From: a virus
Direction: 5' to 3' (one strand)
DNA: 64,000 bases
IMG/VR virus record: IMGVR_UViG_3300044614_000719
Location: 30,761-94,760 of that record
In this document: piece by piece, positions 7,045-35,377 of the stretch
Numbering within the stretch: position 1 is the first letter of the stretch
Layout: every line of letters starts with the position of its first letter
Notes under the pieces: generated by a model
Database searches by the model: none
Seen by the model: only the letters and a program-made list of their open reading frames with translations
What the model was told of the DNA's origin: nothing
Program-made: the position numbers and the translations under genes

Positions 7045-8090
7045 GTTTCTTGTGAAGAAAGACTTTCCAAATAAAGTTCGTGAATAATCTTCTTTAGTTT
7101 TTCTTTATTCTGAACTTCTTGCATCCCATCAATTTCGTTATTGATGATGGATACCGTATCCAATGATGCATCAACTTTATCAACCGAAAGTATATCATTG
7201 TTTTGCTCTTCCGCAACCGTTAAGTTTGCTACTTGAGCGCCATAAAGACTATCCATAAATCTATCAAAAATGTATGGTTTAGTTTTTGTTTCTACAATAA
7301 TTTTTACAAACTTGTTCTTATATTCTGTGAAATCAATTTTCATGGGATCTTCGTCTTTATCATTATAACGAAGAACATAGAACATTTTGTTTTTATTAGG
7401 AATAAATTCCATGACGCGGGTATCTGTGTCAAACACATGGAAACCTTTGCGTTCATTAACATCACCAAATGTTATTTGATAAGGTGTACCAAGATATGAG
7501 ATATTCTTGTCTGTTTGCTTGCAATGAAAGTGACCAGAATATACATGTTCAAACTTTGAGAACAAAGATGGATCGGTTCCTTCTTCGTGCTTAACTCCAC
7601 GCAAAACTTGATACCCGACAAACTCAAAATGACCAAGAACAAAATCCGCAGAAGTATTTTTAATAAACTGCAAACTTTGTTCACTATTTGCTTTATTTAA
7701 CCACGGAACAAATACAAAATCAACTCCACTGAAGTTTACCTTTGCTGGTAAAAAATCGTATATCTTGAAGTCTCCGTCAAACAATTCTCGAAGAGAGTTA
7801 ACATCATTAGTATTTCTAAAATAGGTATCATGATTACCCGCAATACAATGCATTTCGTAGTTGCCATCTTTTAATTTGTCTATAAACCTCTTACGAACTT
7901 GATTTAATGTATGAAAATTAACAAACTTGCGGCGATCCATAAGATCACCCAAGTGAATTATTGTCTTAATGTTGTGTTCTTCCAAATATGGGAAGAATTG
8001 ATTTTCAAAAAAGTCTAAGAAGTGATCCAAAAATAATGGAGCATCATTTCTAGCACCAAAATGAGTATCAGCCAAAAATGCTATTTTCAT
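7041..8090 (-). CDS. gp47: gp47 recombination endonuclease subunit (Mre11/SbcD-like)
   Basis: This is a 349-residue calcineurin-like phosphoesterase (T4 gp47: 339). The metal-binding motifs are in order: DTHFG (8-12), GDLMDRR (48-54), GNHD (85-88), then LGHFEF and YSGHFHC. It is the nuclease of the gp46/gp47 complex that processes DNA ends for recombination-dependent replication. It overlaps gp55 upstream and the unknown gene downstream by ATGA junctions, so late sigma factor and nuclease are translationally linked. Confidence 0.96.
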   Translation of the reverse strand: MKIAFLADTHFGARNDAPLFLDHFLDFFENQFFPYLEEHNIKTIIHLGDLMDRRKFVNFHTLNQVRKRFIDKLKDGNYEMHCIAGNHDTYFRNTNDVNSLRELFDGDFKIYDFLPAKVNFSGVDFVFVPWLNKANSEQSLQFIKNTSADFVLGHFEFVGYQVLRGVKHEEGTDPSLFSKFEHVYSGHFHCKQTDKNISYLGTPYQITFGDVNERKGFHVFDTDTRVMEFIPNKNKMFYVLRYNDKDEDPMKIDFTEYKNKFVKIIVETKTKPYIFDRFMDSLYGAQVANLTVAEEQNNDILSVDKVDASLDTVSIINNEIDGMQEVQNKEKLKKIIHELYLESLSSQET

Positions 8091-8683
8091 TCATCCTCCA
8101 TTATTAGACTCTTGCGATTTTTCTTTTTATTTTTTGGCTTTTTGGGTGTCTCTTCATCTAATGTTTTTAAATAATTTTCTTCATCTTCACTTATACCCAT
8201 ATGCTTTAAGTATTCAGATAAATCACCTTTTGTATCCAAAGACTTTAGGTATTTGTATTTAATTAATGTTTGTTTCTTCTCTTTTTGAATTCTACGCAAG
8301 AACGCATAGTAAATTATTTGGGTAAAGTAAGAAAAGGGATTATTTGATTTAGTGGGATCAAAGTTTGAGCAATACATCAAACAATTTTCAACCCCATCAC
8401 CAATCATATCGTCTTTAAATGGATAATTCATAAAGTTTGGTTTCTTTGCCAAATTTTCAGCAATTTCCATAAAACATTGACCAATATACGGAGTTACTGG
8501 TGGTATGGGATCTCCAACCTCTTTTGATTCGTTTACTTTTGTTTTCCATTCAACCATTTCATCAAAAAACATTTTATTGTTGATGTAATGTGATTTCTTT
8601 TGAATTTCTTCAATTACTTCTTCAGGAAGAGGCTCTTCTATAACTTCTTCTTGCTTCTTCTTTTTCTTTTTGTTCTTTTTCAT
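8087..8683 (-). CDS. gp55: gp55 late-promoter sigma factor
   Basis: T4 gp55 (185 residues) is the small sigma factor that directs host RNA polymerase to TATAAATA late promoters. This protein has 198 residues from the ATG at 8683, chosen over an upstream in-frame ATG because GGAGAA stands at good spacing. A Lys-rich N-terminus is followed by a helical region containing NPFSYFTQIIYYAFLRRIQ, which matches the sigma region 2-like part of gp55. The end KSLIMEDE is short, hydrophobic and acidic, and might serve as the sliding-clamp contact known for T4 gp55; that is inference. Exact late boxes elsewhere in the window are its expected targets. Confidence 0.9.
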   Translation of the reverse strand: MKKNKKKKKKQEEVIEEPLPEEVIEEIQKKSHYINNKMFFDEMVEWKTKVNESKEVGDPIPPVTPYIGQCFMEIAENLAKKPNFMNYPFKDDMIGDGVENCLMYCSNFDPTKSNNPFSYFTQIIYYAFLRRIQKEKKQTLIKYKYLKSLDTKGDLSEYLKHMGISEDEENYLKTLDEETPKKPKNKKKNRKSLIMEDE

Positions 8684-8715
8684 AATGTTCTCCGCTTGTG
8701 GGTATGATACTACAA

Positions 8716-8734
8716 CGCTCGCATAAAGCAAGCG
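8716..8734 (-). promoter_or_regulatory. Hairpin in the gp55 leader, with MotA-box-like sequence
   Basis: Read on the minus strand, CGCTTGC and GCGAGCG form a 7-bp stem (one G-T pair) around the loop TTTAT. The same left arm contains CGCTTG, which also complements CAAGCG just before the gp55 Shine-Dalgarno, so two exclusive structures are possible. TTGCTTTA (8724-8731) resembles a T4 MotA box and lies 14 bases before TATCAT (8704-8709), a possible -10. A role in middle-period expression of gp55 is inference. Confidence 0.4.
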
Positions 8735-8780: not shown

Positions 8781-8815
8781 TCTCAGTGCCGGTGGATACC
8801 GGGCCCTGCAATATA

Positions 8816-20529: not shown

Positions 20530-20560
20530 TATAAAACTCCTTCACGAGTATATAGGTAGG

Positions 20561-21106
20561 TTAACGTCTTAAGTGAAGACCGTTCTTACCGTCTACTTCG
20601 AAGAAGTGGTACTTCAATGTTACTGTAAATTCAACTAAAGCGTCATTGTTGTCGTGTGACAAATCTACGGCAGAGACATCACTGCACCATGCTTTTTGCA
20701 GTTTATATGTTCTGATTGGGCTGTGATTGCGATCCAATTGAATTAATTCAACTACAGCGTTCAAGTTTGCATCATTTGGCAACAATCCTACGTTTGCAAA
20801 ATGACGATTCCAAACATGGTTCCATGCTTCGAAGAAATGTCTTACGCGCATATCAGTACCATCACTCAAGATAGTAAGTGATACGTCATTATAAACTCTA
20901 TCGCCTGGGAATTTGTAAATTCTTCCCATGTGATTTACAGGAATTTCACCAACTGTTGTTTCTGGCAATTGAATGCTTTTAACGTGGATGATTTGATCAT
21001 CTGCATTGAATGCAGGAACGCCTGCTGGTAAATTACTGACTCTGAATTGGAACAGATTTGATCTTGCTCCGCCATCGAATTTAGATGTAAACTTGCTAAT
21101 GTCCAT
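20561..21106 (-). CDS. gp19: gp19 tail tube protein
   Basis: This protein has 181 residues (T4: 163). It stacks as hexameric rings to make the inner tail tube. The beta-rich layout with SNLFQFRVSNLP, SIQLPETTVGEIPV, YKFPGDRVYNDVSLTIL and FFEAWNHVWNRHFANVG matches T4-like tube proteins. It follows gp18 at 18 bases, as expected for sheath and tube made together. Confidence 0.93.
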   Translation of the reverse strand: MDISKFTSKFDGGARSNLFQFRVSNLPAGVPAFNADDQIIHVKSIQLPETTVGEIPVNHMGRIYKFPGDRVYNDVSLTILSDGTDMRVRHFFEAWNHVWNRHFANVGLLPNDANLNAVVELIQLDRNHSPIRTYKLQKAWCSDVSAVDLSHDNNDALVEFTVTLKYHFFEVDGKNGLHLRR

Positions 21107-21124
21107 TTATTGCTCCCTCTTCGA

Positions 21125-22951
21125 TTAGGCTCCAACGACTTCTTCAAAGCTCAAACCAGTTGGTGTAGCAATGAAGTTGAGTTGAATGAAGTTGATTGAT
21201 TTGTTTGGTTTGATATAGATATCTGCTACAAAGTTGTTTGAGTCGATTACTTGTGCTGTATTGTTTGTTTCATCACAAACTACACGGAAATCGGTGATAC
21301 CTCTTCTTCCAAGAACATTTCTGAGGAATGGAGTTACCAAGTTTACAAATTGTGCTCTTGTAAACTCATCGTTGAATTCAAAGAGTTGGAACTTGGCGGC
21401 AGTTGCAATTGATTTCTCAAGAATTATGAACAATCTGCGAACATTGATTCTGTCAAAGGCAGATGGTCTACTTAAGAGAGTCTTGTCTCCGTAAAGAACA
21501 GGACCAATTCCGGGGAATGAAACTACAGGATTCATTCCAATCTTATACAAATCATCGCGTTGTGCTTGATTTGGATTGAAAGGAAGTTTGATTACTCTGT
21601 TAATTCCACCACGGTTTAATCCGGCTGGAGAGAACCAAGGATCATTTGTGCTATCTGTACGAGCACACAATCCTGCAATATCTGCATTTAGAGGAATATA
21701 AACATATTCGTCGTTATAATTGTCGTATTGCAATTTGTAACCAGTATCAGCAACACCATAGGAAGTGGAATCGCCATTTGTTCTAAATGCAACGATATCA
21801 TCCAAATATGCACTTGGTGTTTGATTGAAACCATTTGTTGGTGTTGGGGACACGAATGCCACAACATCTTTTCTTGTTTCTGCTATTTCTGTTACACGGT
21901 ATGCAGCAGTTTTACCGAGTGGTCCTGTGATAAACATTGAAACATCGATGATTTCTGGATCACCCATGTATGTGTTGAATGCCTCTGCGATGTCGTTATC
22001 ATTTGGTGTAGTTCCAACCAATCCACCATACAGCATACTAACTACAAGATTTTCGCCAGTTTTAACAATTTTGAATGCGGCTGTAGTAGTTGTTACGGCT
22101 GTGCCCCATGCAGTGGTTCCAGTTGAAGTTACAGCACCAAATGCATTTACATTTGATGTATTGTTTGTTACACTTGCACCATCTAAGTGATTTAATGACC
22201 AAACATACTTTGATTCATTATTGATTACATCTTTATAATAATTAGATGTTCCGTTTTGATTTACTGCGTTTGATGCCTTTGAAAGGTAAGCAAACTTTTC
22301 AAGAATTGTACCAGCAGTACCGGAAATTTTACCATCTGCATCAATTACAAGAACGTGAATTTCGTCTTTAATATCTGCTCCAGTTACTGCTGTTGCCCAA
22401 GGGGATGTTCCTGGCAAACCATCAAAATTACCGATATAGTCGATATATTGATTGGCGTTTCCGTCTGTATCGGCTCCATATGTTTCAGCAGCATAATAAT
22501 CCAAAACTACTACTTTGATACTGTTACCAAGTTCGCCTGGATACTTTGCTCCCCAGAATCCATTTCCGACAACTGGAGTATATGCTCTAAATGATGTCAA
22601 TCCGCAAAGATTATGTCCTGCAACCGCAGCAGTTCCTGAGGTTGCGGTAAATGAACCAGCACTATCGTTAATAAATCTTACAATTTTAATATTGTTACCG
22701 TAAGACAAGAAATTGGCAGCAGACCACCACCATCTGTTGTATTTGGTGGCATCGGTCATTGCGCCTGATGCTTTTGCTGGCTTATAAAATACTTCTGAAA
22801 GTTCTTTTTCGCTCGTAATTGTCACTGGTTCGTTGCCTGGTCCCCATTGGAACAAGCCAACCATACCTGCTGGTGTGGTGGCGATTGCTGGCACCAAAAG
22901 TGTGACATCTTTTTCTGTTACATTTACGCCTGGGCTAATTTGAATTGCCAT
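21125..22951 (-). CDS. gp18: gp18 contractile tail sheath protein
   Basis: This protein has 608 residues (T4: 659). The N-terminus MAIQISPGVNVTEKDVTLLVPA is typical of sheath proteins. The conserved C-terminal domain contains FPGIGPVLYGDKTLL, SAFDRINVRRLFIILEKSIA, and the ending KSINFIQLNFIATPTG, by which sheath subunits knit together around the tube. The variable middle domain faces outward. GAAGGAG precedes the start. Confidence 0.96.
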   Translation of the reverse strand: MAIQISPGVNVTEKDVTLLVPAIATTPAGMVGLFQWGPGNEPVTITSEKELSEVFYKPAKASGAMTDATKYNRWWWSAANFLSYGNNIKIVRFINDSAGSFTATSGTAAVAGHNLCGLTSFRAYTPVVGNGFWGAKYPGELGNSIKVVVLDYYAAETYGADTDGNANQYIDYIGNFDGLPGTSPWATAVTGADIKDEIHVLVIDADGKISGTAGTILEKFAYLSKASNAVNQNGTSNYYKDVINNESKYVWSLNHLDGASVTNNTSNVNAFGAVTSTGTTAWGTAVTTTTAAFKIVKTGENLVVSMLYGGLVGTTPNDNDIAEAFNTYMGDPEIIDVSMFITGPLGKTAAYRVTEIAETRKDVVAFVSPTPTNGFNQTPSAYLDDIVAFRTNGDSTSYGVADTGYKLQYDNYNDEYVYIPLNADIAGLCARTDSTNDPWFSPAGLNRGGINRVIKLPFNPNQAQRDDLYKIGMNPVVSFPGIGPVLYGDKTLLSRPSAFDRINVRRLFIILEKSIATAAKFQLFEFNDEFTRAQFVNLVTPFLRNVLGRRGITDFRVVCDETNNTAQVIDSNNFVADIYIKPNKSINFIQLNFIATPTGLSFEEVVGA

Positions 22952-23040
22952 TGTTTCTCCTTCTAGACGCCGTGTGTTATTTCTATAATTAGAAAATACT
23001 ATTTGCTAGGAATATGTATAATTTTATGGTGTTTCGATTT
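22952..23040 (-). other. Intergenic leader of gp18
   Basis: Eighty-nine bases between gp17 and gp18. It holds an AT-rich inverted repeat (TTTCTA-TAAT-TAGAAA near 22983-22998) and the gp18 ribosome binding site. No exact late box is present; a promoter here is likely but I cannot place it. Confidence 0.4.
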
Positions 23041-24663
23041 TTACAAAATAGTATCGCCAAATTCACCACCAAACCCATCATCATCCCCATAATCCACGTT
23101 ACTTAGGAAACCAAAAGGCATAATTTCTTCCTCAATCGCATCAATTTGCTTTTGAAATAGAGTCTTTCTTATATCCAAATCTGTCAAATCTTTAAAATAA
23201 GTTTGGGTACTTAACCAACCAAAAAGAACCAAGCACATAATAAGATCGTCATTGCTGCCAGTATCTGCTTCATATGAATTATTTTTTGAAATAAAGGTAA
23301 CAAGTTCTCGCATGATATCGATATCGTTTAGTATCAGTTTGTCACTCTCTATCATACTCTTCAATACGGAGCATCCTAGACGCTTTACAACCTTTGTGGT
23401 GCGTACACCCAACTGGGTATCTGAGTTACCAAACCCACCATCTAAAGTCTGACCCTTTCTTCCCCGCACAGAAGATATAAGAACATTTTCATATTCTAAT
23501 TCTTTATATAAAATATCAGCAACTTGTCCGCCAATATCATTGATTTCTACTAAAATAAATGCTTCATTATATTCCCTAGAAGTATTCATAATAATATTGG
23601 GATATACCATAGGAGAAATCATGTTATTTTTAAATACAGCAACGACCTTATAGGGCATCTCAGTTATATCAAGTACACAAAATGCACTATAGTCTAATCC
23701 TTGACCTCTAGAGGTATCAACCAAAGTCAAATAACTGTGCTTCTCTTTTGGTTTTTCATAAACTTTCAATCCATCGTCATTTTTATAAATTGGATTGCGG
23801 AATACCAAAGTCTTCAATTTATTTGCACTAATGAGTGTATTTGTAGAACCAATGAAATCACATTCGTGTTCTGTTCGGAACTTGTCTTCAGAACCCAAGT
23901 TACGGATTTCTTGTTCGCGCCAAACTTGATCTCTGCCGGGAACTTGACTCCAATGGATTTCTACATTCTTAAAGTCGTTTCGGTGTTCCGCAGAATCTAC
24001 CCAAATCTTATAAAATAAATTCAAACCATTTGGTGTGGAAATTATTACTAATTTGGTAGTTTTACCGGAAGTAATTGTTGGAAATACAGAGGTATAGAAA
24101 TCATTTGCAATGTTTTCAGGAACGTGAGCAAACTCGTCCAACATGATAAGATTAAAAGATCCACCACGGATAGCAGATGCAGAGGTTGCAGCAGCAATAA
24201 TTCTAGAACCGTTTTCCAGTTCTATGCTCATTTTATTCCATTCTTTTATACCTTGTTGTAGCCACTTCGGAAGGTATTCGTATGCAACTTTCAATCTATC
24301 CATGTGCAACTTTGCTACAGTTTGTTTATTTGCAAGAATAGCAACATTGCTTGTTGGATTGAAAAGAATATACCAAAGAATATAAGCAACCAGAGTAGTT
24401 GACTTACCGCATTGACGAGGCATTTTGCCTATCGTGAATCTATTTTCATTAATAGTTTCAACAAACAATTCTTGGAAATCAAACATATTAAAATTGATAA
24501 GTCCTTTGTCCAGACTTACAATCTTGACATAGTTTTTAATAAAGTAAATCGGATCTTGGGAGCACTTAACATATTCTTCTACTTGTTCGGGAGTAAAAGA
24601 AACGTTTACATTTGCTCGTTTAAGATTTGGATTTCCAAGATATGTTTTTTCTTTATTCTGCAT
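23041..24663 (-). CDS. gp17: gp17 terminase large subunit
   Basis: This 540-residue packaging motor (T4: 610) has an N-terminal ATPase with Walker A PRQCGKST (82-89), Walker B LIMLDE (172-177) and coupling motif IISTPNG. The C-terminal RNase H-like nuclease contains LTLVDTSRGQGLDYSAF, LVEINDIGG and DDLIMCLVLFGW, which supply the metal-binding acids that cut concatemers. It overlaps the end of gp16 by 11 bases, coupling the two terminase subunits. Confidence 0.97.
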   Translation of the reverse strand: MQNKEKTYLGNPNLKRANVNVSFTPEQVEEYVKCSQDPIYFIKNYVKIVSLDKGLINFNMFDFQELFVETINENRFTIGKMPRQCGKSTTLVAYILWYILFNPTSNVAILANKQTVAKLHMDRLKVAYEYLPKWLQQGIKEWNKMSIELENGSRIIAAATSASAIRGGSFNLIMLDEFAHVPENIANDFYTSVFPTITSGKTTKLVIISTPNGLNLFYKIWVDSAEHRNDFKNVEIHWSQVPGRDQVWREQEIRNLGSEDKFRTEHECDFIGSTNTLISANKLKTLVFRNPIYKNDDGLKVYEKPKEKHSYLTLVDTSRGQGLDYSAFCVLDITEMPYKVVAVFKNNMISPMVYPNIIMNTSREYNEAFILVEINDIGGQVADILYKELEYENVLISSVRGRKGQTLDGGFGNSDTQLGVRTTKVVKRLGCSVLKSMIESDKLILNDIDIMRELVTFISKNNSYEADTGSNDDLIMCLVLFGWLSTQTYFKDLTDLDIRKTLFQKQIDAIEEEIMPFGFLSNVDYGDDDGFGGEFGDTIL

Positions 24664-25108
24664 CTATAATATCGCCATTATTTTCTAACTTCTCAATTTC
24701 TTTTATTTTTCCACGAAGCAGTTTTTGCAGATCTGCCGTGCTACCGACAAATATAGAATTGTTGGTAGTTACAGAATTGGGAGTATTGGTTTGAGGTTCT
24801 CCTTTAATAACCTTCATCTTGTTGTGCATATCCAACAGATCTTTATTCGTCTCAGCAACAGTTTTAATTAATTGTGCAAGAACTTCATATGCTCTTGGTT
24901 GTTCTGTTTCCGATGCTAAATTCAGAATACCATCTATAGCAGATGTACCTTTGTTTATTAGTTCTTTTAAATTATCTCTTACCGTGAGATAATCTTTATC
25001 CAGATCGTCCTTTTGAACAGTAATTTCTGTTGCTTTGCGTAATTGTGGGACTTCTGGTTCTGGGGTTGGTTCTATATTAAATTGTTTTTCCAGTTCATCA
25101 AATGACAT
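24653..25108 (-). CDS. gp16: gp16 terminase small subunit
   Basis: The protein has 151 residues (T4: 164). It is mostly helical with a central segment LTVRDNLKELINKGTSAIDGILNLASETEQPRAYEVLAQLI that matches T4-like small terminases, which form rings that recognise DNA ends and regulate gp17. Position immediately before gp17 and the overlapping reading frames confirm the role. Confidence 0.92.
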   Translation of the reverse strand: MSFDELEKQFNIEPTPEPEVPQLRKATEITVQKDDLDKDYLTVRDNLKELINKGTSAIDGILNLASETEQPRAYEVLAQLIKTVAETNKDLLDMHNKMKVIKGEPQTNTPNSVTTNNSIFVGSTADLQKLLRGKIKEIEKLENNGDIIDAE

Positions 25109-25118
25109 AATGTATCCA

Positions 25119-25286
25119 TTAATATTCTGTGATTGTTTGTTTTATATCGTAGTCATCACTGGGAACTACTTGTACTCCAGACTTTAATTCAATTTTATCG
25201 CCATTAGTATCTAGGACATAATCATCATTGGTGTCCTTTAAATATACCACTGGCTCTATATGAATGTTTACTAATTTCTTTGCCAT
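25119..25286 (-). CDS. Small unknown protein between gp15 and gp16
   Basis: A 55-residue frame starts MAKKLVNIHIEPVVYLKD and ends YDIKQTITEY. It fills the 179-base gap between gp15 and gp16, starting two bases after the gp15 stop and ending ten bases before gp16. The composition is ordinary for these neighbours, with repeated D/Y segments (DTNDDYVLDTNGDKIEL). No known family is apparent. The tight fit makes it very probably real. Confidence 0.75.
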   Translation of the reverse strand: MAKKLVNIHIEPVVYLKDTNDDYVLDTNGDKIELKSGVQVVPSDDYDIKQTITEY

Positions 25287-25287
25287 A

Positions 25288-25956
25288 TTAATCCAAATTA
25301 AAAAGATTAACGTCGATAGTTTTGATAAGTCCTGCTTCTCTTACTGGTCCATAGTAATAAGTTCTAGCGACAAATTGCAATTCAAATATAATAGATCTTT
25401 GGTTGTCGTCTTTAAAAGAACCTTCGAATTGCTGATCAGTATTGGTACTAACCAATGTAATCGGAATATCTAGTTTTTCATAACCATCACTCAATACACT
25501 TGGTTTAATTGTTATTGTGAATTCTGGTGTAAAGAATGGGAATATTTGTTCAATAATTTTTAAACCATCATCCATAGTACGGCTATAAATGAATAAAGAA
25601 AATGTTAATTTATATGGTACTTCATTAAAGTGATAATTAATAATAACATCACCATTTGTTTGTACCTTTTCTGCTCGTCTCTTTGTTGAACTGTTTAATT
25701 TTCTTTCCGTATCGTATTCCAATCCCGTCATCATAAATGACATTCTTGGTATTCCGAGAGCAGTAGCATATGCAACAGGATCATCCAATTCCAAATTTAA
25801 ACGCTCCATCATTCTTTCTTTTGGAGCATATGTTAATGGAACTTTTATTTTCTTGTAAGTATTGCCGGAACCACGTTCTATGTAAATGTTATTAAACAGC
25901 GTACCGAACGCCGCTGTTATCTTTTTTGTAATTCCGTGATAAAACGTGGTAAACAT
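25288..25956 (-). CDS. gp15: gp15 tail terminator (sheath stabiliser)
   Basis: This protein has 222 residues (T4: 272, whose extra length is a C-terminal tail). The N-terminus MFTTFYHGITKKITAAFGTL followed by IYIERG, KIKVPLTYAPKERMMERLN and IPRMSFMMTGLEYD matches T4 gp15 closely in pattern. Gp15 forms the hexameric ring at the top of the tail that joins it to the gp13/gp14 neck. It overlaps the gp14 stop by one base. Confidence 0.94.
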   Translation of the reverse strand: MFTTFYHGITKKITAAFGTLFNNIYIERGSGNTYKKIKVPLTYAPKERMMERLNLELDDPVAYATALGIPRMSFMMTGLEYDTERKLNSSTKRRAEKVQTNGDVIINYHFNEVPYKLTFSLFIYSRTMDDGLKIIEQIFPFFTPEFTITIKPSVLSDGYEKLDIPITLVSTNTDQQFEGSFKDDNQRSIIFELQFVARTYYYGPVREAGLIKTIDVNLFNLD

Positions 25957-26672
25957 TAATACTTATTCTCCGAGAATGGATCTATTTCAGTAAAATCAAT
26001 CAAATCTCTTGTACCAGATTGTAGTATATCATTATCACTTTGTTGTTTTTTATCTTTAACCGATGTGATGGTTTCGTCTATAATTCCATCGGAGTTATAG
26101 TCCATTTGTTCCGTAACAGTTTGCGTCAAATTTGTTTGTATTGAATCTATTTCGGATATACCAGTATTCAAGTTTTCGTAAGAGTACTTGAAGAGTTCGC
26201 ATTCTAATTTATATGTGTATAGTTTTCCAAATTGATAAAATACTTCTTTATTATCTACGTATTTAATTTCAAACAAACCCTTTGAGAATGGATGGAAAAT
26301 TAAATCACCTTCCATTGGGTTGCTTATTTGTACTGGACGATCTGCCATTACTTCAAATTTTGCTGCTTCTCTTTGAAATCTTCTTTTTGAAACAACTAAA
26401 CTTAATGTATCTCTTATTTCTAAACCAAACTTTGAAATAATTTCGCGCTCTCCAGAAAACCCAGAGTAGTTGTCCATAAACATTTCTATTTGTATTGCAT
26501 CTTTAAAATAAGAAGTTGCATCTTCACCAAACAACTGATCTAAATTTGCAAATCTACGAGGAATGTAATAGACATTTATTCCATTAATTTTAATGGATTC
26601 CTCAATAAGATCTTCCATGAGATCTTGTTGAGGTTTATAGGCGTAATTATTGAAGTGTGGATTTAAAGCCAT
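25956..26672 (-). CDS. gp14: gp14 neck protein
   Basis: This protein has 238 residues (T4: 256). The stretch LMEDLIEESIKINGINVYYIPR, then LFGEDATSYF, GFSGEREIISKFGLEIRDTL and GDLIFHPFSKGLFEI follows the T4 gp14 pattern. With gp13 it forms the neck that seals the head after packaging. It lies one base after gp13. Confidence 0.95.
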   Translation of the reverse strand: MALNPHFNNYAYKPQQDLMEDLIEESIKINGINVYYIPRRFANLDQLFGEDATSYFKDAIQIEMFMDNYSGFSGEREIISKFGLEIRDTLSLVVSKRRFQREAAKFEVMADRPVQISNPMEGDLIFHPFSKGLFEIKYVDNKEVFYQFGKLYTYKLECELFKYSYENLNTGISEIDSIQTNLTQTVTEQMDYNSDGIIDETITSVKDKKQQSDNDILQSGTRDLIDFTEIDPFSENKY

Positions 26673-26673
26673 T

Positions 26674-27498
26674 TTATCCTATAAATCCTTGTGGTGGGAG
26701 TTCGTATTTGGCTTGAATTTCGTTTTCTATTTTTTCAACTTCTGATTTTGCTTCAGATGCCATATTAGCACCATTAAATGAAACACCACCCGGTAAACTC
26801 ATACCACTAAACTTAGATAGATTTAATCCCCATTGTTGTTTAATTAAAGCTGTTAAATACATTTTTAATAAACGATCATTGTAAATTTCTGGATACAATG
26901 AAGGATCGAGAATTTTATATGCTTCAAATACTAAGTAATTACCCTTAGTCATTTTTTCTGACCAATTGGTTTCTACATAAATCCGATTGGTAACGCGACT
27001 AAACTCAATCATCTTTTCGGGGGTCAACATATCCTGAAGCATTTGCATATGACTTCTTGTTATGTTATAACCAATTAACGAGTCACCATATGTGTTGGTT
27101 CTTAACCCATATAAGTCATTTAACGCGATTTGATACTTTGCATCAAACATACCCAAACCACCCAAAGTATCAAATAATTGAAAGCAACGAATTACACTAA
27201 TTATTGAATTACCATCTGGGTCTAATGCAGGTGCTGCTTTAATTTCTATACCATCGTCAGTTGCAGCCAAAGTTGGTTGGGTTAAATCTATATAACCCCG
27301 CTCTATGTCTTGCTGGGTCACTTGTTTTCTTAAATAAACTCTCTCCACACCATCAAAATGGTATTCGGCAAAAAACTGTAAAGCATCGTCCACACGATCC
27401 TCTATTTGCGAATCATCCACGTTGATTTGTACAACAGGATAACCGAGTCGTCTTAGACAATAATCTTTAAGTTGTTCCCTTGTTGAAGGTTTTGCCAT
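26674..27498 (-). CDS. gp13: gp13 neck protein
   Basis: This protein has 274 residues (T4: 309). The N-terminal STREQLKDYCLRRLGYPVVQ, the DRVDDALQFFAEYHFDGVE segment and YLTALIKQQWGLNLSKFSGM are typical of gp13 of T4-like phages. It assembles on the portal before gp14. Its ribosome binding site AAGGAG is inside the 3' arm of a perfect 12-bp inverted repeat that surrounds a late promoter, implying special control of the neck-terminase-sheath operon that begins here. Confidence 0.95.
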   Translation of the reverse strand: MAKPSTREQLKDYCLRRLGYPVVQINVDDSQIEDRVDDALQFFAEYHFDGVERVYLRKQVTQQDIERGYIDLTQPTLAATDDGIEIKAAPALDPDGNSIISVIRCFQLFDTLGGLGMFDAKYQIALNDLYGLRTNTYGDSLIGYNITRSHMQMLQDMLTPEKMIEFSRVTNRIYVETNWSEKMTKGNYLVFEAYKILDPSLYPEIYNDRLLKMYLTALIKQQWGLNLSKFSGMSLPGGVSFNGANMASEAKSEVEKIENEIQAKYELPPQGFIG

Positions 27499-27505
27499 AT
27501 GTAAA

Positions 27506-27544
27506 ATCTCCTTGGTTCTACATTATTTATAAAACCAAGGAGAT
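27506..27544 (-). promoter_or_regulatory. 12-bp inverted repeat enclosing the gp13 late promoter and ribosome binding site
   Basis: On the minus strand the left arm ATCTCCTTGGTT (27533-27544) and right arm AACCAAGGAGAT (27506-27517) are perfect complements around a 15-base loop. The loop carries an exact late box TATAAATA (27524-27531); the right arm carries AAGGAG for gp13. Initiation at the normal late spacing would be at about 27518, the base before the right arm, so late messages would lack the left arm. Read-through RNA would fold and hide the binding site, and the TTTT after the stem could also stop transcription. Confidence 0.8.
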
Positions 27545-27567
27545 CCTTTTTTGTAAATGTTATTTAC

Positions 27568-27915
27568 TTATTCTTTAAACAAATATTGAATTTTTGCTAA
27601 ATCAGCAACCGAAAGTTTCATATTATCACCCAAAGTATCTACTTCAATTGGTTCCCATGAGACATCTACTTCTTCGTTTAAAAACTCACTAAATTCTTTC
27701 AAAAATAGTTCTTTATTTTCATCCGAAACAACCGTACCATCTGGTGCGTATTGCTTTACCAACTTTAATCTTTGATCTTCTACTAACTTGACTTCAGCGT
27801 TTAGAACATTTAGCAACTTCATTAGTTTAAATGAAATCTTAGTTGGGAGTGGTTCTTCAATTAGTTTGTTTAAAACAGATACAGAACTATAAATATCAAT
27901 CAATCGAACTTTCAT
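27568..27915 (-). CDS. Small helical phage protein of unknown function
   Basis: This protein has 115 residues beginning MKVRLIDIYSSVSVLNKLIEE and continuing with KLMKLLNVLNAEVKLVEDQR. The layout resembles the DUF1617-type proteins found in tail gene clusters of other phages, but I am not sure. The C-terminal part is acidic (FLNEEVDVSWEPIEVDTLGDN). It is the last gene of the fiber block; the hairpin/late-promoter element lies beyond it. AAAGGAG precedes its start. A tail assembly role is inferred from position. Confidence 0.75.
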   Translation of the reverse strand: MKVRLIDIYSSVSVLNKLIEEPLPTKISFKLMKLLNVLNAEVKLVEDQRLKLVKQYAPDGTVVSDENKELFLKEFSEFLNEEVDVSWEPIEVDTLGDNMKLSVADLAKIQYLFKE

Positions 27916-27966
27916 AATTTCTCCTTTATAAAATCAGGTACATTATATAGTCAATAAAAGTAAATG

Positions 27967-30567
27967 TCAATCTGGTATACCATCAGTTGTTGTAAACTTT
28001 TCTAGAGGATAATATTTATTTAAAAATGTGCTATAAGATAGGTGAGTTCTATAAATAAAACACGAAGAATAAGCACTCTGGGTTGAAATTAAAAGACCCC
28101 TAGAATATACTAAAAAGTTTGAATCTATTGCGCTAACGGCGGAATTTATATTTGACCAACCACCAGTTTGAGTTCCACCTTGATCTGTAGTTAATTGATC
28201 TACATTAATTCCTCTGTAAAAGTCATAATTACTGACCGCTGGCGGTTCTCCGGCTACTCTTGATGTATTTTTAAACAAATAATCGATAAACAAAGGATGA
28301 GCAAATTTGTAAGTTTTTGAAACTAATGTCGTCCCACCAATTACGGTTGGAACTGTAGAGTTTTGAAGATTTTTGCATACAAAATTTACTGGTTGCAGTG
28401 TTATTCCTCTTAATGCTGCTCTTAAATTGCTTTGATTGTTTTTAATAGTATTAAGATTTATTGCAGAAGATATGCATCGGTTTCCACTTGCGGTCATTTC
28501 AAAAACAACATAGTGTGTTGTTTGTGTCGTTGGAAAACCAAAAACGTCCCATTTTATTATGGGATATTGTCCCAAAGAGGCCGCATTTGTTGCGGTGGAA
28601 ATGCCCGTTTGCGACGGAGCACTAAATGATGGACTTAAAGGTCCAATTGGATAAGTTATTGATGATGGAGTACATGAGCCACTTACAGTAACTCCAAAAC
28701 GATTTTCTTCATATTGAAAACTATGTGAAGAAAGTGGTATCGCACCAGTAACTAATAATTCTCTTGTAATTAAGTTAAAACCAAATATGTCGCATAATGC
28801 TTTCCACAACAATAAATCGTTTCCTTCTAAACTTATACCAGTCATATTTTTTATTGTTTGTGTGCCATCATAATTGACATCACCACCATTAATAAAATCG
28901 TCAAGTTGAGTTGTTGTTAGATTTTTTAGTTTAACTATAAAAGTATCAAACTCTGGTAAAGTTAAATACATTGGCAAAGTAAATCTAACCTTAGCACTTG
29001 CACTCTGTGTTGTATTTTCTGTGTTGAGTGCTATCATTGTGCTAATATCTTCAAAGAACTTTAAATTAGCACCATTGGGATTTTGTGTATTAATTGGTGG
29101 TATTTGATAAATTTCCCGACACATATCTTCAGTGGTTGTGTCGTCGTTTACCGGTCCATAAAAACAATTAGTACAGCAATCTTGTAAATCACTTTGTGCA
29201 TTTAAAACTGGTATTGTTCTATCTGTAGCAGTATTATCTGCAACCAACAAATACGAATATGGATTATAATATTGTCCAACTCCCGGTATATTAATTAAAT
29301 CTCTATCAACAAAAATATTACAATCACCAAATCCAGATGTTGTTCCTAGACTACCAAGTGTAACTTGTTGGTTTGTCCAAGGTGCTCCATATGAAAAAGA
29401 ACCAGTGCAATTTACACTTGCTGGAAAATCATTGGTGTTTCCCATTGCCCATATAAATTCTTGAGTACCACCAGCACCATAATTCCAACATGTTCCATGT
29501 GCCCATGTTTTATAAAATTCTTGATCAAATAAAGTAACACAATATTCTTGTCCACATGGTAAATCTAGATAGGATCTATTCCCATTAACCGAATTAAAAT
29601 TCTGTATTGTGTTTAAATCAACATCCAGTAGCACAAATCTATCATAATATGGGTATATTGAACTATCTCTAGTTGCGGCAACTTGGGCAGGACCAGTTAA
29701 GCATGTACCTCCGGGAGCATATCTTTGATCATATGCACCAGTGGGTACGTATGTCGTCTCAGTGGGTGGACTTGTATCACTATCAACGATTGTTACAGTT
29801 CTACCGTGATCTGTCCATTTATATCTTGGTCTACTTACGCGAGAAACTATAGTGCTTTTAAAATTAGAGGTTTTATAATCTATTAGTATAAACCCCGGCA
29901 ATATGGGATAATTTGTTAATTCATCATAAGAAATTTTTAATGCTTTCCAAAATATATTAGTTAAATCACCAGTTCCGTATGAAAAACCCGAAACAGATTC
30001 TGAAATTCCACTGGGTGGAAGGCTTCCGGTAAATGAACTATTAAACCAATTGCAAAAACAAAAATTTGGTAGTGAAGGATTGCAACTTAAAGGTTGTTCT
30101 AGTGTTCTGTAGTACACCGAAGAAGACAAATCTTCATTTGGTGTAACTCCATTGTTTTCTAAATTCGTTTTGACATAATCATAAGACAATGATGTTTTTT
30201 TCCAATAAGTTTTATCTAAAGTGCTAACTGGATGAAACCATGGTCTTAATCCGGAAATTGTCGGTGATGATGTAATGGCACACGCTGGTTGATTTAATAC
30301 CGGTCTTGCCACCCCAACATAATTTGCTCTCGTTGTTGTAACAAGACCAGTCGCTGCCGTTCCCACATTGAAATAATATACATAACCAACATCACAGTCG
30401 CTACACAGTGAAGGAACAGTGGTTACGGTATTATCAAATACTAACTTTGGTGCTCCACTTGCATCTCTAACATAAATTTTAGAAATTTCTTGTGGGGTTC
30501 CAGAAGCATCACGTACAAAAATTCTAGAAATTTCTCTTGGGTTATTTGAGTTATCTCTAACAAACAT
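27967..30567 (-). CDS. Tail fiber/adhesin with N-terminal VRDASG repeats
   Basis: This protein has 866 residues. The N-terminus holds three imperfect copies of a 14-15 residue unit (FVRDNSNNPREIS, FVRDASGTPQEIS, YVRDASGAPKLVF), a motif I recall from fiber proteins of marine T4-like phages, probably part of the attachment region. The remainder is Cys-, Tyr-, Asn- and Ser-rich beta structure with pairs such as CSDC and CNWF and no recognisable enzyme motif. It lies two bases after the 1537-residue fiber gene and likely forms the distal or receptor-binding part. Confidence 0.75.
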   Translation of the reverse strand: MFVRDNSNNPREISRIFVRDASGTPQEISKIYVRDASGAPKLVFDNTVTTVPSLCSDCDVGYVYYFNVGTAATGLVTTTRANYVGVARPVLNQPACAITSSPTISGLRPWFHPVSTLDKTYWKKTSLSYDYVKTNLENNGVTPNEDLSSSVYYRTLEQPLSCNPSLPNFCFCNWFNSSFTGSLPPSGISESVSGFSYGTGDLTNIFWKALKISYDELTNYPILPGFILIDYKTSNFKSTIVSRVSRPRYKWTDHGRTVTIVDSDTSPPTETTYVPTGAYDQRYAPGGTCLTGPAQVAATRDSSIYPYYDRFVLLDVDLNTIQNFNSVNGNRSYLDLPCGQEYCVTLFDQEFYKTWAHGTCWNYGAGGTQEFIWAMGNTNDFPASVNCTGSFSYGAPWTNQQVTLGSLGTTSGFGDCNIFVDRDLINIPGVGQYYNPYSYLLVADNTATDRTIPVLNAQSDLQDCCTNCFYGPVNDDTTTEDMCREIYQIPPINTQNPNGANLKFFEDISTMIALNTENTTQSASAKVRFTLPMYLTLPEFDTFIVKLKNLTTTQLDDFINGGDVNYDGTQTIKNMTGISLEGNDLLLWKALCDIFGFNLITRELLVTGAIPLSSHSFQYEENRFGVTVSGSCTPSSITYPIGPLSPSFSAPSQTGISTATNAASLGQYPIIKWDVFGFPTTQTTHYVVFEMTASGNRCISSAINLNTIKNNQSNLRAALRGITLQPVNFVCKNLQNSTVPTVIGGTTLVSKTYKFAHPLFIDYLFKNTSRVAGEPPAVSNYDFYRGINVDQLTTDQGGTQTGGWSNINSAVSAIDSNFLVYSRGLLISTQSAYSSCFIYRTHLSYSTFLNKYYPLEKFTTTDGIPD

Positions 30568-30569
30568 AA

Positions 30570-33500
30570 TTAAGGTTGCTTTCTTACAAAGATAATTTGT
30601 CCGGGCGGTCCGCTTGGCGATCCACCAGCAGTTGGATCTGTGCCATTTGGTACTACCAAATACAGTGGTCCTCTATTTGCATCTGTAATTGTACTTGAAT
30701 AGTTTGTGGTATTGTATGTAGTCGCACCACTATACAATAGTGCTTTTGTTGCCACTGCATTCAAATCAAAATTATACTTACCATCTGCATTTGCTATTGC
30801 AATAGTATTTAGGAGGACTGGTTTACCTCTTGCAACCGCACCAACTTCCCATGCTTGAAGAGCATCTGCGCCAGCACTTGCACCGTTGCTATCAAACAAT
30901 TCATCTTGTGCCCATCTATGTGTATCTGAGTGAGTGCTTACGGACAATCCAGTAACTGTTGCATTTGCAAAATTAATAGTTCTAGTTGTACCCCCAACCT
31001 CACCAAAATCAATGTCTATATCAAATATAATTTTGTTACTAGTAGTAAATTCTGATCCACTAATACGTATCGTTCCATCATCGTCTACATCGGTAAAATA
31101 TAACGAAGTTAATTCGCTACCAGCAGAAATGCTTCTAAATGTTAGTGCAAAGTTTTGATCCGCAATAATAGCAAAATCTTCAGTTGCAGTGTTGTTAAAA
31201 TTTACAGAACGCATAAATGCGTATGCACCTGATGTTGCTATATCAACAGTATTGGAAGTAGATCTAATTTGTTTAGAGTTTAGAGTCACACTTCGACCAG
31301 AACCAGAAAATGCTATATCATTTTCGGAATTCAATGTAATGTTACTTGCTAAAGCAGTAAATGCCCCATTTTGTAGAACACTCGAACTATTATAAGTTTT
31401 AACATTTAGTGTATAAGCATCAGCATACACAACTTCAGTTATTACATTATTGTAAATATATTTTTGTCCCGCAAGGCTTGCCAATGCTGAAGTTACTGTT
31501 ATTAAATTAGTTTCAGCAAAATTATTTGTAGCAGTAAATCTATATTCTTTAGAAATTATATCAGTAGAAGTGGCAGTTCCTCCTATGGATGGTCTGCTAT
31601 TAAATGATTCAATATTATAATAACTTGGTTTTGTTGTTGTTGCGTTTGTTTCATTACCATATCTTACAGTTGTACCAAAAGAAGTTGCACTAACAAGAGA
31701 AGAATTTGTTGCAAATCTTGGTGTCAAATCAGTAGAAAGAATAGTCTTTGCAGATATTCCTATAGTTTTTGTACCAGTGGCTGATGTAGTTGTTAAAGTT
31801 GCGGTTCCATCAGTATTTCTAAACAATAAAACTTCACCATTTGTTGCTAATGAACTTGATGTGTTTGGTGGTTCAGATGCGTTTTGTGTACCAACGCTAC
31901 TATACCAACCAATACCCAACATACTTCTAACTGTTGTTCCTGCTCCAGTAACTGGAATTGCTTGCATATCGCCTGTAGATGCGCGTCCTAAGAAAGTATT
32001 TGGACTTATTGTTATTGGGGATGGTACAGCACCTATTGAACTGGCATTTGCTAAAACTGTATTTGGTCCTATGACAGATAATCCATAATTTACAGTTAAT
32101 TCTTTTGCCGTTGAATCATAAGAACCAGTAGCAGTTAAACCAGAACCAGTTTTGAATGCTAGAGAAGTTAAATTAGCATCAACAGTGTTGACTCCTCCAG
32201 TACCAACAATAATTTGACGTATAGTTGGTGTTGGTTGAGTCGAACCTCCTGTAGAATTTATAGTTATAGTGTTTGTTGCGTCATTTGCGGTAAAACTAAT
32301 ATTTGTACCAGCACTAAATGTAAGTTTTCCTTTATTTGCCCCTAGTGCATTTAAATAAGTAGGAGAACCACCAGTACCAACTTCAATTAAACCAAAATAT
32401 GGCATTTGTAAAGATGGTGCTGTAGAAGTTCCAACCCCTGTTGTCCAGGCCAAATCCGAATTTGTTATTGCTTCAATTGGTCCACTGCCAACTCTTCCAA
32501 CAAAAGAGTTAGAGGAAACTGAAATTGCGCTCATTCCGTCTGTTGTTCCGGGATTTCCAAGCAACACATAATCATCTGATATATTTAAATCAAAAATAGC
32601 AGTATCGTTATTTGTATCTGTTACTATTGATATAAATTGACCAGATTTTAATGTAAAATTATCACTAGAAGTATTTGCGTCAAAACTATCTAAAGTAGTA
32701 CCATTTTTATTCTTAATGTTTACTTTAGCAAATGCGTTTTGTGCAACTCCAGTATTTGTTATTACTATTCTATTTGGAGAGCCTGGATTTGATAAAGAAA
32801 TTCCAGTTCCTGCTTCAAAGAAAATTGCACCATTTTTATCAGCTGCGGTAATGTAATTAGAACCACCATCTATTGTCCATTTGCTGTATACACTGCTTAT
32901 ATTATCAATATATCCTGTTGGAGCAATACCCATCAAGAAACGTAATGCGTTTCTTCCCAGTCTTTGTATCGAAGAAGAGGGGAACACTGATGTACTATTT
33001 GCACTTGGTGTTATTCTACCAACAACGAAACCAGCAAGTTCCGAGGGTAGATATTTACCAAGCGTATCTGTTGGCCAGAATCCTCCGGAGTCAACATCAT
33101 AACTCGAAGAATCATAAGTGTATATTCCACCACTGGTATATGTTATTGTTTTTGCGGGTTCTAATGCTAGAGAAACATCATCATAACTGGAACCCAAATT
33201 AGATACGAATGAACCAGTTCCACTACCCAATAAACTTACAGTTGAAGCAGTTGTTGTATTTCCGCTTGCCAATACTTGGTATCTTGCATCATAGTTGATA
33301 TTACTTGTAGCAACACCACCAGTAACAGATGCTGTTATAATAATTGAATCGTCTGTGTTGTGTGTAAATGATATTCCAGGTCCAGCAATAAATTGTAAAG
33401 TATCTGAAGGTACTTCAGCGGTATATGTAATAGCAGAATCTGCATCGGTAAAGATTACGCTGCTAAAACTATTTTGTCCTTCAAAATTAATGGTTTTGGT

Positions 33501-35183
33501 TGTATCATTTGCTACAATTCGAAGTGTGCTACTTGTAAAAGATATGATATCATTTGGATTTGCAGAAACTACTTGTCCATCTCCATCAGATCCTACACCA
33601 TTTACTTGTATGGTTTTGAAAGTGTCTTGTGCTCCAGCCAAACCTTCTACACGTATTTCAATTTCATTATCTGTATTAATATCAAGTTTAATATTTTGAC
33701 CACCAACTAGAGTCAAATTATAATTTGGTTGATCGATTTCCAAACTTTCTGTGCTGGAATCTGAACTATTAAAAATGGTAATTTGATCTATATTTGCATT
33801 CTCGGGAGTAAACGATGTAATCAAAACACCTTTTTTATCCGAAATTGCAACAAATACGGGTTTAATTATTCCAGAACTGTATGTTCCTTCCTCCACGAAA
33901 TCACCAGCAGTGCTTTGGGAAAGGTAATATTTAATGCCTGGTTCAAGACTTGTTATCGAATTAAATTCAAATTCACCATTTAGAACTATTGTTGCTTGAC
34001 CACCGATTACAGATTCAACTATACCAACTATGTCATAGTTTCCTGCTGGTGATGCTTGTGCTTTTGCATAAGTTATGTCACCATCTGTAATGGTTCCAAC
34101 ATATACTACATCACCTTCAGACAAAGACACATAATCTGTAGTGACTATTCTGTTTGTAAACTTTTTATTTACTTGTCCATCAGAACCAGTTAAAACTACT
34201 TTATTTGCTCCGGATGGAGAGGAAATAAATTGTGAAGAATTTTGTATATCAGTAATATAAATTCTACCATTAACATTGATTAAATTATCATAAGCAGCCA
34301 ACTTTTGCATAGTCAAAATAGGCTGATCCAAATCGGTAGAATCTGCATCATAAAAATAAAATCCTGCAAGAGATTCTGCAAATTTTAATTTCCAAGTTGC
34401 TGGCCAAGTTGTTGTTGCAGTTTCACCAATAGCACCATACTTCCAATCTGTTGGTGCTGCACCTACGTTAAAATTTAAAGACAATATGCTTACAGAAAGA
34501 TCGTCATCATTTGTAGAAAGATTTGAACCCGGCAAATCTTGTGTGCAGAAATTAAAGTTTGCTTGAGTATTTGATTCTGTCACATAATTTGAAAATATTC
34601 CGTAGTTATTTTCAAATGTAAAATTAGTACCAACAAACCAACTATTATTAAAACCACCAAATTTTATGTAAGCATTTGATGATTCACCTACAGTATTGCC
34701 ATTTGCTTTAAGAACGGCAAACCAGTTATTTGCACTGTTTCCAATTACAGATTGGGAAGATGCTAAAGTTAATTGTTGTCCTTGAATACTTAAACTTTGT
34801 TCAAATGTGTGAGTATGTTTTAGTGTTGGTGGTAAAAAAGAATCCAGTTTTACTTTTTTAATAACACCAGATCTTTCAACTAAAGCATAATCAGTTCCAA
34901 GAGTTGGTGAAACTGTGGAAGCACTAGTTAATTCATCTATTGCGTCAAATTTTATAGTTAATTCATTACCGGCAGTAAATCCAAGACCAGGACCATTATC
35001 AATATTAATTGTAACAACACCATCGGCGCGAGTGGTACAAATACCATCTCCATCAAAAATATCAACAACATATAAAGAATTCAATCCATTAATTAATTGG
35101 TTTGTGCGATTCAACCAAGTGATTACTGTATCTGAATTTGTTAGCGTTTCTAAATCAAATACTGGTTCTCTGAATGCACTCAT
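30570..35183 (-). CDS. Long tail fiber protein
   Basis: This protein has 1537 residues, beta-rich and low in Cys. The N-terminal domain (MSAFREPVFDLETLTNSDTV, TWLNRTNQLINGLNSLYVVD) probably docks to the baseplate. It is followed by many repeats of a trimeric-fiber type pattern G-x-G-I/L-S-F...T/D-N-T-I-x-I (for example GPGISFTHNTDDSIIITA, AGTNISFTANDATNTITIN). The end GPPGQIIFVRKQP is short and exposed. Such fibers bind host surface structures. The 65-residue gene upstream overlaps it by four bases and may be its partner. No peptidase-type chaperone domain was recognised at the end. Confidence 0.82.
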   Translation of the reverse strand: MSAFREPVFDLETLTNSDTVITWLNRTNQLINGLNSLYVVDIFDGDGICTTRADGVVTINIDNGPGLGFTAGNELTIKFDAIDELTSASTVSPTLGTDYALVERSGVIKKVKLDSFLPPTLKHTHTFEQSLSIQGQQLTLASSQSVIGNSANNWFAVLKANGNTVGESSNAYIKFGGFNNSWFVGTNFTFENNYGIFSNYVTESNTQANFNFCTQDLPGSNLSTNDDDLSVSILSLNFNVGAAPTDWKYGAIGETATTTWPATWKLKFAESLAGFYFYDADSTDLDQPILTMQKLAAYDNLINVNGRIYITDIQNSSQFISSPSGANKVVLTGSDGQVNKKFTNRIVTTDYVSLSEGDVVYVGTITDGDITYAKAQASPAGNYDIVGIVESVIGGQATIVLNGEFEFNSITSLEPGIKYYLSQSTAGDFVEEGTYSSGIIKPVFVAISDKKGVLITSFTPENANIDQITIFNSSDSSTESLEIDQPNYNLTLVGGQNIKLDINTDNEIEIRVEGLAGAQDTFKTIQVNGVGSDGDGQVVSANPNDIISFTSSTLRIVANDTTKTINFEGQNSFSSVIFTDADSAITYTAEVPSDTLQFIAGPGISFTHNTDDSIIITASVTGGVATSNINYDARYQVLASGNTTTASTVSLLGSGTGSFVSNLGSSYDDVSLALEPAKTITYTSGGIYTYDSSSYDVDSGGFWPTDTLGKYLPSELAGFVVGRITPSANSTSVFPSSSIQRLGRNALRFLMGIAPTGYIDNISSVYSKWTIDGGSNYITAADKNGAIFFEAGTGISLSNPGSPNRIVITNTGVAQNAFAKVNIKNKNGTTLDSFDANTSSDNFTLKSGQFISIVTDTNNDTAIFDLNISDDYVLLGNPGTTDGMSAISVSSNSFVGRVGSGPIEAITNSDLAWTTGVGTSTAPSLQMPYFGLIEVGTGGSPTYLNALGANKGKLTFSAGTNISFTANDATNTITINSTGGSTQPTPTIRQIIVGTGGVNTVDANLTSLAFKTGSGLTATGSYDSTAKELTVNYGLSVIGPNTVLANASSIGAVPSPITISPNTFLGRASTGDMQAIPVTGAGTTVRSMLGIGWYSSVGTQNASEPPNTSSSLATNGEVLLFRNTDGTATLTTTSATGTKTIGISAKTILSTDLTPRFATNSSLVSATSFGTTVRYGNETNATTTKPSYYNIESFNSRPSIGGTATSTDIISKEYRFTATNNFAETNLITVTSALASLAGQKYIYNNVITEVVYADAYTLNVKTYNSSSVLQNGAFTALASNITLNSENDIAFSGSGRSVTLNSKQIRSTSNTVDIATSGAYAFMRSVNFNNTATEDFAIIADQNFALTFRSISAGSELTSLYFTDVDDDGTIRISGSEFTTSNKIIFDIDIDFGEVGGTTRTINFANATVTGLSVSTHSDTHRWAQDELFDSNGASAGADALQAWEVGAVARGKPVLLNTIAIANADGKYNFDLNAVATKALLYSGATTYNTTNYSSTITDANRGPLYLVVPNGTDPTAGGSPSGPPGQIIFVRKQP

Positions 35184-35377
35184 TTGTTATTGCCTTTTAG
35201 TAATGATTGAACTATATTTTCTAATTCTCTAACTCTTTTTTCTAATGTTATATATCTATCGTTTTCTCGCTTAATCCGCTTCGCTTCCATTAGTTTATTT
35301 CTATCACACGATAAAATTGCTCCAGTTTTACGATCTCGTTTTAGATCCTCTCTACCAGTTATTGGCAATTCACTCAT
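35180..35377 (-). CDS. Small coiled-coil protein
   Basis: This protein has 65 residues, ending in a heptad-like helix (YITLEKRVRELENIVQSLL) that could trimerise. The N-terminal half is basic (REDLKRDRKTGAILSCDRNK). It overlaps the genes on both sides by four bases, so it is translated with the baseplate and fiber genes. Similar tiny genes sit before fibers in related phages; a connector or assembly role is inferred. Confidence 0.78.
   Translation of the reverse strand: MSELPITGREDLKRDRKTGAILSCDRNKLMEAKRIKRENDRYITLEKRVRELENIVQSLLKGNNK

Follow-up and report, generated by a model that had tools for sequence, protein, structure and literature searches.

The leader of the neck gene gp13 in a T4-like phage raised the question of why a T4-type late promoter octamer, TATAAATA, should lie in the loop of a hairpin whose 3' arm carries the Shine-Dalgarno (SD) sequence of the same gene. 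The phage is represented by a virus record of 94,760 bases (G000), of which a stretch of 64,000 nucleotides, here called the window, was analyzed (Table 1). Genes recognized in the window are those for gp13, gp14, gp15 (sheath stabilizer), small and large terminase, sheath, scaffold and major head protein. By analogy with T4, the virion protein gp13 is essential. Among the 60 of 2326 records listed for named phages, the best gp13 relatives are at most 46% identical and come mostly from phages that infect Synechococcus, Pelagibacter and Methylophilales. A search of Rfam at gathering thresholds gave no match anywhere in the window. The arrangement is best explained as a hidden-ribosome-site leader of the type known from T4 gene e, placed here on gp13, and we assign this reading a probability of about 0.8. 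Predicted folding, compensatory change in relatives, rarity within the genome and the presence of gp55 support this reading. The observation itself was confirmed, and comparative analysis of sequences supports the core of its interpretation.

Table 1. Features of the gp13 leader and of related loci (window coordinates).
Feature	Position	Strand	Remarks
gp55-like late sigma factor	8087..8731	-	phrog_234, E 2.1e-58; match at G000:C1:38871-39362 (window 8111-8602)
gp14 (head closure Hc2), next gene	25956..26672	-	1 nt beyond the gp13 stop
gp13 neck protein (head-tail adaptor Ad2), 274 aa	26674..27498	-	phrog_211, E 1.2e-36
Whole RNA stem-loop, 20 bp including G-U pairs	27503..27547	-	
3' arm (AACCAAGGAGAT)	27506..27517	-	carries the gp13 SD
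AAGGAG, gp13 SD	27508..27513	-	inside the 3' arm
Predicted late transcription start	27518	-	inferred; 6th base after the octamer; spacing from PMC1524935
TATAAATA, T4-type late promoter octamer	27524..27531	-	in the loop
5' arm (ATCTCCTTGGTT), anti-SD strand	27533..27544	-	absent from RNA started at the late promoter
115-aa gene, phrog_1401	27568..27915	-	directly upstream of the hairpin
Perfect sigma70 promoter, TTGACA-17-TATAAT (12/12)	27942..27970	-	upstream of the 115-aa gene

The arms form a perfect 12-bp repeat around a 15-nt loop (27518-27532), with the octamer inside the loop and AAGGAG in the 3' arm, as the sequence-only reading had described. The gp13 start codon, an ATG at 27498, lies 9 nt downstream of AAGGAG. 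In predicted folding, the RNA stem extends to 20 bp with G-U pairs and the loop shrinks to 5 nt. The folding energy of the hairpin was -25.9 kcal/mol compared with -8.8 +/- 2.5 kcal/mol for shuffled sequences (z -6.8), and none of 200 shuffles folded as well. The probability that the SD is unpaired in the modelled long RNA was 0.0004 for each of four upstream starts, and the stem was retained in modelled RNAs 302-802 nt long. RNA beginning at 27518 was predicted to have almost no structure. Modelled starts from 27524 through 27513 all freed the SD (unpaired probability 0.67-0.86), so the exact choice of start is not critical; when the modelled RNA was extended upstream, the SD closed between 27536 and 27542. 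The proposal that the hairpin forms only in the long RNA is therefore borne out in the folding model, which hides the SD in the long RNA and frees it in the short one.

Initiation had been placed at 27518, the base preceding the 3' arm, and this predicted position agrees with a late-promoter motif that occupies -13 to -6, as given in PMC1524935. The octamer is no more frequent in the window than expected by chance (6 found, 9.2 expected), and its weight therefore comes from its position and conservation. The core ATAAATA is scarce across the window (15 found, 35 expected), a pattern that would fit avoidance of late-promoter-like sites other than at promoters. No exact copy of this core occurs on the minus strand from 27524 to 18226, so about 9 kb that include gp13, gp14, gp15, terminase and sheath may depend mainly on the gp13 octamer as their consensus late promoter. 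The suggestion that the hairpin governs this whole operon is weaker: the promoter may serve the operon, but the hairpin hides the site of gp13 alone, and the ATG of gp14 has its own AGGA close by. For the hairpin to control the entire operon, coupling or polarity would be required.

The factor expected to recognize TATAAATA is gp55, which was found in G000 and in 7 of the 12 clade relatives searched; the remaining 5 are fragments without a match. A gp55 match in G009 (G009:C1:43953-44447) has a single in-frame TGA. In the gap beside the gp55 gene of the window lies a plus-strand TTGACA-TATAAT promoter-like site (8753-8830) followed by a conserved GTGCCGGTGGATACCGGGCC stretch, with similar stretches in G001 and G003. 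The site has no match in Rfam and possibly specifies a small or antisense RNA.

Relatives of gp13 were collected from IMG/VR, and the best 80 of 117 were taken. The layout is present before gp13 in every one of the 36 loci that reach 68% identity and include a leader (L001-L036), each with an enclosing repeat, an ATAAATA core and an SD in the 3' arm; L053, 88% identical over half of the protein, is cut before its leader and lies outside this count. A pattern search built on the 3' arm (AACCAAGGAGAT..ATATG) matched 24 stretches. The other 43 of the best 80 relatives are 42-45% identical, and none of the 40 printed leaders from this distant group, judged by eye, has such a hairpin. An automatic hairpin test likewise gave none in 12 of these distant leaders, in T4 or in the records of 12 named phages, of which 10 are from cultures and 2 from single cells. 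This form of control is thus dispensable elsewhere.

The 37 leaders represent 20 distinct stems. Because MAFFT placed the leaders poorly, pairs were counted in an alignment anchored at the CC/GG of CTCC/GGAG, with anchors picked for best pairing, which favors pairing somewhat. Pair 3 is G-C in 10 of the stems, A-T in 5, T-A in 3 and mismatched in 2, and pair 4 is T-A in 7, A-T in 5, G-C in 2, G-T in 2 and mismatched in 4. Watson-Crick pairing accounts for 98 of the 120 cells of inner pairs 1-6, compared with 63.4 +/- 4.6 under a null in which whole 3' arms were re-dealt in the anchored register, and both sides have changed in 26 cells (null 8.8 +/- 2.6), where a cell counts a sequence and not an event and the loci are related. 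None of 2000 shuffles reached either value. Covariation of the arms, the absence of which had been named beforehand as the refuting outcome, was thus found, and it makes the hidden-site claim directly testable. The weakest stems are those of L020 and L023 (7 of 12 pairs each) and of L026, L028 and L030 (7, 7 and 8).

Folding was extended to 26 of the 36 leaders, near-copies being left out. With GGAG scored, the probability of an unpaired SD in the long RNA was at most 0.0092 in all 26. In the short RNA it exceeded 0.5 in 23 of the 26, and the SD was still largely paired in the model for L010 (0.103), L036 (0.303) and L027 (0.444).

The gp13 leader is also rare within the genomes that carry it. 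When 381 NATAAATA sites from 13 records were scanned (11 of these records belong to the hairpin clade), a stem of at least 8 bp together with an SD and a start codon was detected at 11 places. Ten of these were gp13 leaders, one per record, from G000 and 9 of 10 clade relatives; G008 was missed since its imperfect gp13 stem fell under the threshold, and the eleventh place was a weak 8-bp site in the outgroup record G018. The control octamers were imperfect and gave 11 (a shifted motif at the same sites), 8, 5, 3, 1, 1 and 1 places, and the counts of 8 and 5 probably fall in the same palindromes. When the 83 late-leader candidates from these 13 records were compared for SD accessibility in the long RNA, gp13 accounted for nine of the ten lowest values, the tenth being that of a 478-aa gene of G008. 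Ten leaders combined a hidden site in the long RNA (<0.1) with an open one in the short RNA (>0.6), eight of them at gp13 and two in G018. The gp13 leaders of G003 and G012 were hidden in the long RNA and had short-RNA openness of 0.48 and 0.44, and the gp13 leader of G008 scored 0.4 in the long RNA, where another SD register was taken, and 0.0004 with GGAG scored. The earlier statement that no other leader shows the hairpin holds among the six candidate NATAAATA leaders of G000, in which the SD is hidden at gp13 alone.

A switch of the e type calls for early or middle RNA that reaches the gene. The phrog_1401 family of the adjacent 115-aa gene was present in 13 of 13 hairpin-clade records searched, and 34 of 36 relatives show an upstream frame that ends in a similar C-terminus. 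The 115-aa protein gave a confident structural model (pLDDT 91), whose structural relatives were exclusively phage proteins of the viral library, uncharacterized or unnamed (E 0.001). Neither a fold search of the PDB at E 0.001 nor a tblastn search of the phage collection at E 0.01 gave a match, and the best Pfam match was under the cut-off. Identification with the 'tail fiber assembly' protein of S-SCSM1 was rejected, as the two have no similarity.

A perfect sigma70 promoter such as that preceding the 115-aa gene is expected 0.07 times per window. Its -10 element and TTGAC are kept in all five aligned relatives, and the surrounding bases vary. Of 31 relatives whose upstream sequence is long enough to judge, 9 (L001-L007, L015 and L016) have near-consensus promoters, and all 31 keep the hairpin; sigma70 read-through is therefore not the general reason for the hairpin. 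Where the promoter is lacking, the 115-aa gene closely follows the preceding gene. The sequence-only reading had traced read-through RNA to the fiber genes, a view that is weakened for the window by the 12/12 promoter and is possible for other relatives. In this phage, the promoter sequence makes sigma70 transcription the likelier source, and in the subclade of the window host-type RNA polymerase could reach gp13 early, as with T4 e. An ATAAATA at 28013-28019, within a fiber gene, was given no weight as a late promoter of the 115-aa gene, because the corresponding stretch in relatives follows the coding sequence by eye.

The proposed switch would operate as follows. Early in infection, polymerase arriving from upstream, most plausibly from the sigma70 promoter before the 115-aa gene (the use of which we infer), would copy both arms. 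The long RNA would fold into the 20-bp hairpin with AAGGAG buried, and gp13 would hardly be translated. Later, gp55-RNA polymerase would use the TATAAATA enclosed by the arms to initiate near 27518. The resulting late RNA, devoid of the 5' arm, would present AAGGAG free at 5 nt from its 5' end and should be translated.

The stem-loop might instead serve chiefly to end the upstream message, either by intrinsic termination or by protecting the 3' end, and house the promoter and SD to save space. The leaders come in two anatomies that bear on this reading, which we consider unlikely. In 11 of 23 leaders (the kin of the window, L017, L019, L022 and L036), the 5' arm lies 23-29 nt past the upstream stop and 4-7 U occur within the 8 bases past the SD, with 4 U in L001, which has the hairpin of the window, and 7 U in L017, L019 and L022. 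Weak termination could occur in this form, and in T4 the interval between wac and 13 likewise holds a GC-rich hairpin. In the other 12 of 23, the 5' arm lies 7-10 nt past the upstream stop and the stem is kept with only 1-4 U after the SD, and on this ground termination was rejected as the conserved role. Nor would a terminator need its pairing to include the SD. The suggestion that read-through RNA terminates at the stem plus TTTT is weaker: only 4 U follow the SD, a terminator scan of 20000-39000 passed the site over, L001 has the identical hairpin followed by 4 T in 8 bases where at least 5 define an intrinsic terminator, and the U-poor relatives speak against it. The 7-10 nt form suits a coupling switch, in which gp13 is shut unless ribosomes ending the upstream gene open the hairpin, and output from the long RNA follows the upstream gene. 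A distance of 7-10 nt from the stop is within or at the edge of the reach of a terminating ribosome, which could open the hairpin in these 12 leaders. The 23-29 nt of the other 11, among them L001 with both the hairpin and the spacing of the window, are probably beyond that reach, and coupling leaves the placement of the promoter between the arms unexplained; we hold it to be distinctly unlikely. Since pairing of the SD is common to both anatomies, hiding of the site is taken as the conserved role.

A function of the inverted repeat in DNA, as a site for a dimeric regulator or as a cruciform at the late promoter, would fit the perfect symmetry around the octamer. A fixed binding site would keep its letters, but the inner arms vary among phages with their pairing kept and G-U pairs included, and no such repeat occurs in the five remaining late-leader candidates of G000; this very improbable reading was rejected on arm covariation. 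That the repeat arose by chance at a late promoter could draw only on the octamer being no commoner than chance, and this negligible prospect is refuted by the folding z-score and by covariation in two lineages. The hidden ribosome site remains the preferred reading.

T4 uses the logic of a hidden site for e, soc, 49, I-TevI and other genes, according to PMC3014915 and PMC2988022, and the precedent invoked for gene e and others is thereby borne out. The e and 49 leaders were read and folded for comparison. As at gp13, the SD hairpin of e, soc and 49 forms only on the long RNA, with a late TATAAATA in the 5'-strand stretch, and the late RNA of e lacks the 5' strand (PMC3014915). The gp13 leader shares several traits of the e type: the SD lies in the 3' arm of a hairpin predicted to be stable in long RNA, the promoter is positioned, as far as its letters tell, so that late RNA loses the 5' arm, the phage encodes gp55, and the pairing is kept by selection in relatives. 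The switches of e, soc and 49 sit on lysis, decoration or recombination genes, whereas the gp13 leader precedes the first gene of the neck block, is clade-wide and usually the sole such leader per record, and has a perfect sigma70 promoter beside it in the subclade of the window. The leaders of I-TevI, -II, -III, segB and Aeh1 mobE follow a like promoter-in-hairpin logic (PMC2988022), but these homing endonucleases are selfish genes inside early or middle units, unlike the virion gene gp13. Virion genes are nevertheless not outside the known kind, because PMC2988022 names T4 39, 25 and 26, together with soc and e, as late genes that are repressed by a hidden ribosome site and lie on long RNAs with early and middle genes; gp13 is not among the genes so named. 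For gene 25 (and 38), PMC3014915 describes a structure between SD and AUG that aids translation; the gp13 SD sits inside the stem, and the leader therefore differs from this split-SD enhancer. In T4 gene 13 itself (L326:3090-3125), a GC-rich hairpin ends just before the SD, and no late promoter octamer is present.

The PeSL cassettes of T4-like phages resemble the gp13 leader in joining a promoter to a stem-loop. PeSLs are early sigma70-type promoters with terminators and occur in many copies per genome. The gp13 leader differs in having a late-type promoter in the loop, a stem that hides the SD and a single copy in G000. Mentions in PMC4503421 and PMC3950731 indicate that PeSL cassettes may move between phages. 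No earlier report of a hairpin at gp13 was found in the open-licence literature searched, a coverage outside which most journals lie. The gp13 leader would extend to this gene, with unusually wide reach, a switch whose logic was already known from T4. There, the known sites are lysis, decoration, recombination and homing genes, with baseplate genes 25 and 26 added by PMC2988022. Conservation with compensatory changes at gp13 suggests translational timing of neck assembly in many uncultured phages.

The layout is not confined to gp13. The pattern CTCCTT-TATAAATA-AAGGAG occurs in at least 120 stretches of IMG/VR, compared with 40 when one arm was scrambled. A start codon follows 93 of the 121 matches listed (24 of 40 in the control), and 20 of these 93 lead gp13. 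Extension by 3 pairs or more is seen in 49 of 88 distinct stem-loops, compared with 10.4 when the flanks were re-dealt (maximum 20, 500 shuffles). Twenty representative genes led by the pattern comprise gp13 (1), tail tube (3), baseplate hub with tail lysozyme (1), baseplate hub (2), baseplate wedge subunit (1), head closure Hc2 (1), large terminase (1), homing or other endonucleases (4), a glycosyltransferase (1), genes of no family (3) and genes of families mainly of unknown function (2). Its presence on other virion genes suggests that what looked like a peculiarity of T4 may be a widely used element of regulation. A broader reading, which we offer tentatively and at somewhat below even odds as a whole, is that hidden-site late leaders are a general and partly mobile checkpoint of virion assembly in environmental T4-like phages. 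Under it, two large lineages or more would silence gp13 on RNA that passes through from upstream, although they spell the late promoter in three different ways; the cassette would also guard structural genes for the tail tube, the baseplate hub and wedge, head closure and terminase; and phages could pass on a leader of about 60 nt as one piece, for which L235 and the pair L262/L272 are suggestive.

One pattern match, L235, led to a second gp13 lineage, of which the best 80 of 233 relatives were analyzed; 77 of the 80 loci gave 55 distinct leaders, and 54 were scored. These have the same layout as the clade of the window with different stems. The SD was hidden (<0.1) in 47 of the 54 leaders and not in 7. 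A TATAAATA-type octamer or TATACATA was present in 41 of the 54, and CCTAAATA in 12 of the other 13. Only 16 of 54 combined a motif, a hidden site and an open short RNA (>0.5), a low count due in part to predicted starts that often fall inside the SD and leave the short RNA unscorable. The mean enclosing stem was 7.96 compared with 4.75 (maximum 5.4, 100 shuffles), and the longest gapless stem was at most 5 in 23 of 55 leaders. Gp55 was found in two of three second-lineage records. In L361-L411 and G021, which belong to this lineage, TATACATA replaces TATAAATA in the loop of the gp13 leader. Its strand bias in G021 was 10 to 1 (4 to 2 for the reversed control), and in the other four records searched it showed no excess over the control; as a sequence motif, TATACATA is perhaps a variant late promoter, for which these counts are only suggestive.

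On a tree of 55 gp13 proteins, 31 of them with the hairpin and with L235 as the only representative of the second lineage, the hairpin label requires two changes, one for the group of the window together with L235 and one for L195/L202. In L235, 59 bases (L235:222-280) that comprise the whole hairpin leader plus ATGGCAA are identical to L012; the outer 25-nt blocks on both sides are near chance identity, and the two gp13 proteins are 47% identical. The 30-base junction of L235 occurs in no other IMG/VR contig, and the leader reflects either an exchange or an assembly chimera. The leaders of L262 and L272 are 90% alike over 67 nt and precede different genes, with flanks at chance identity in ungapped comparison, which is a second hint of a mobile late leader.
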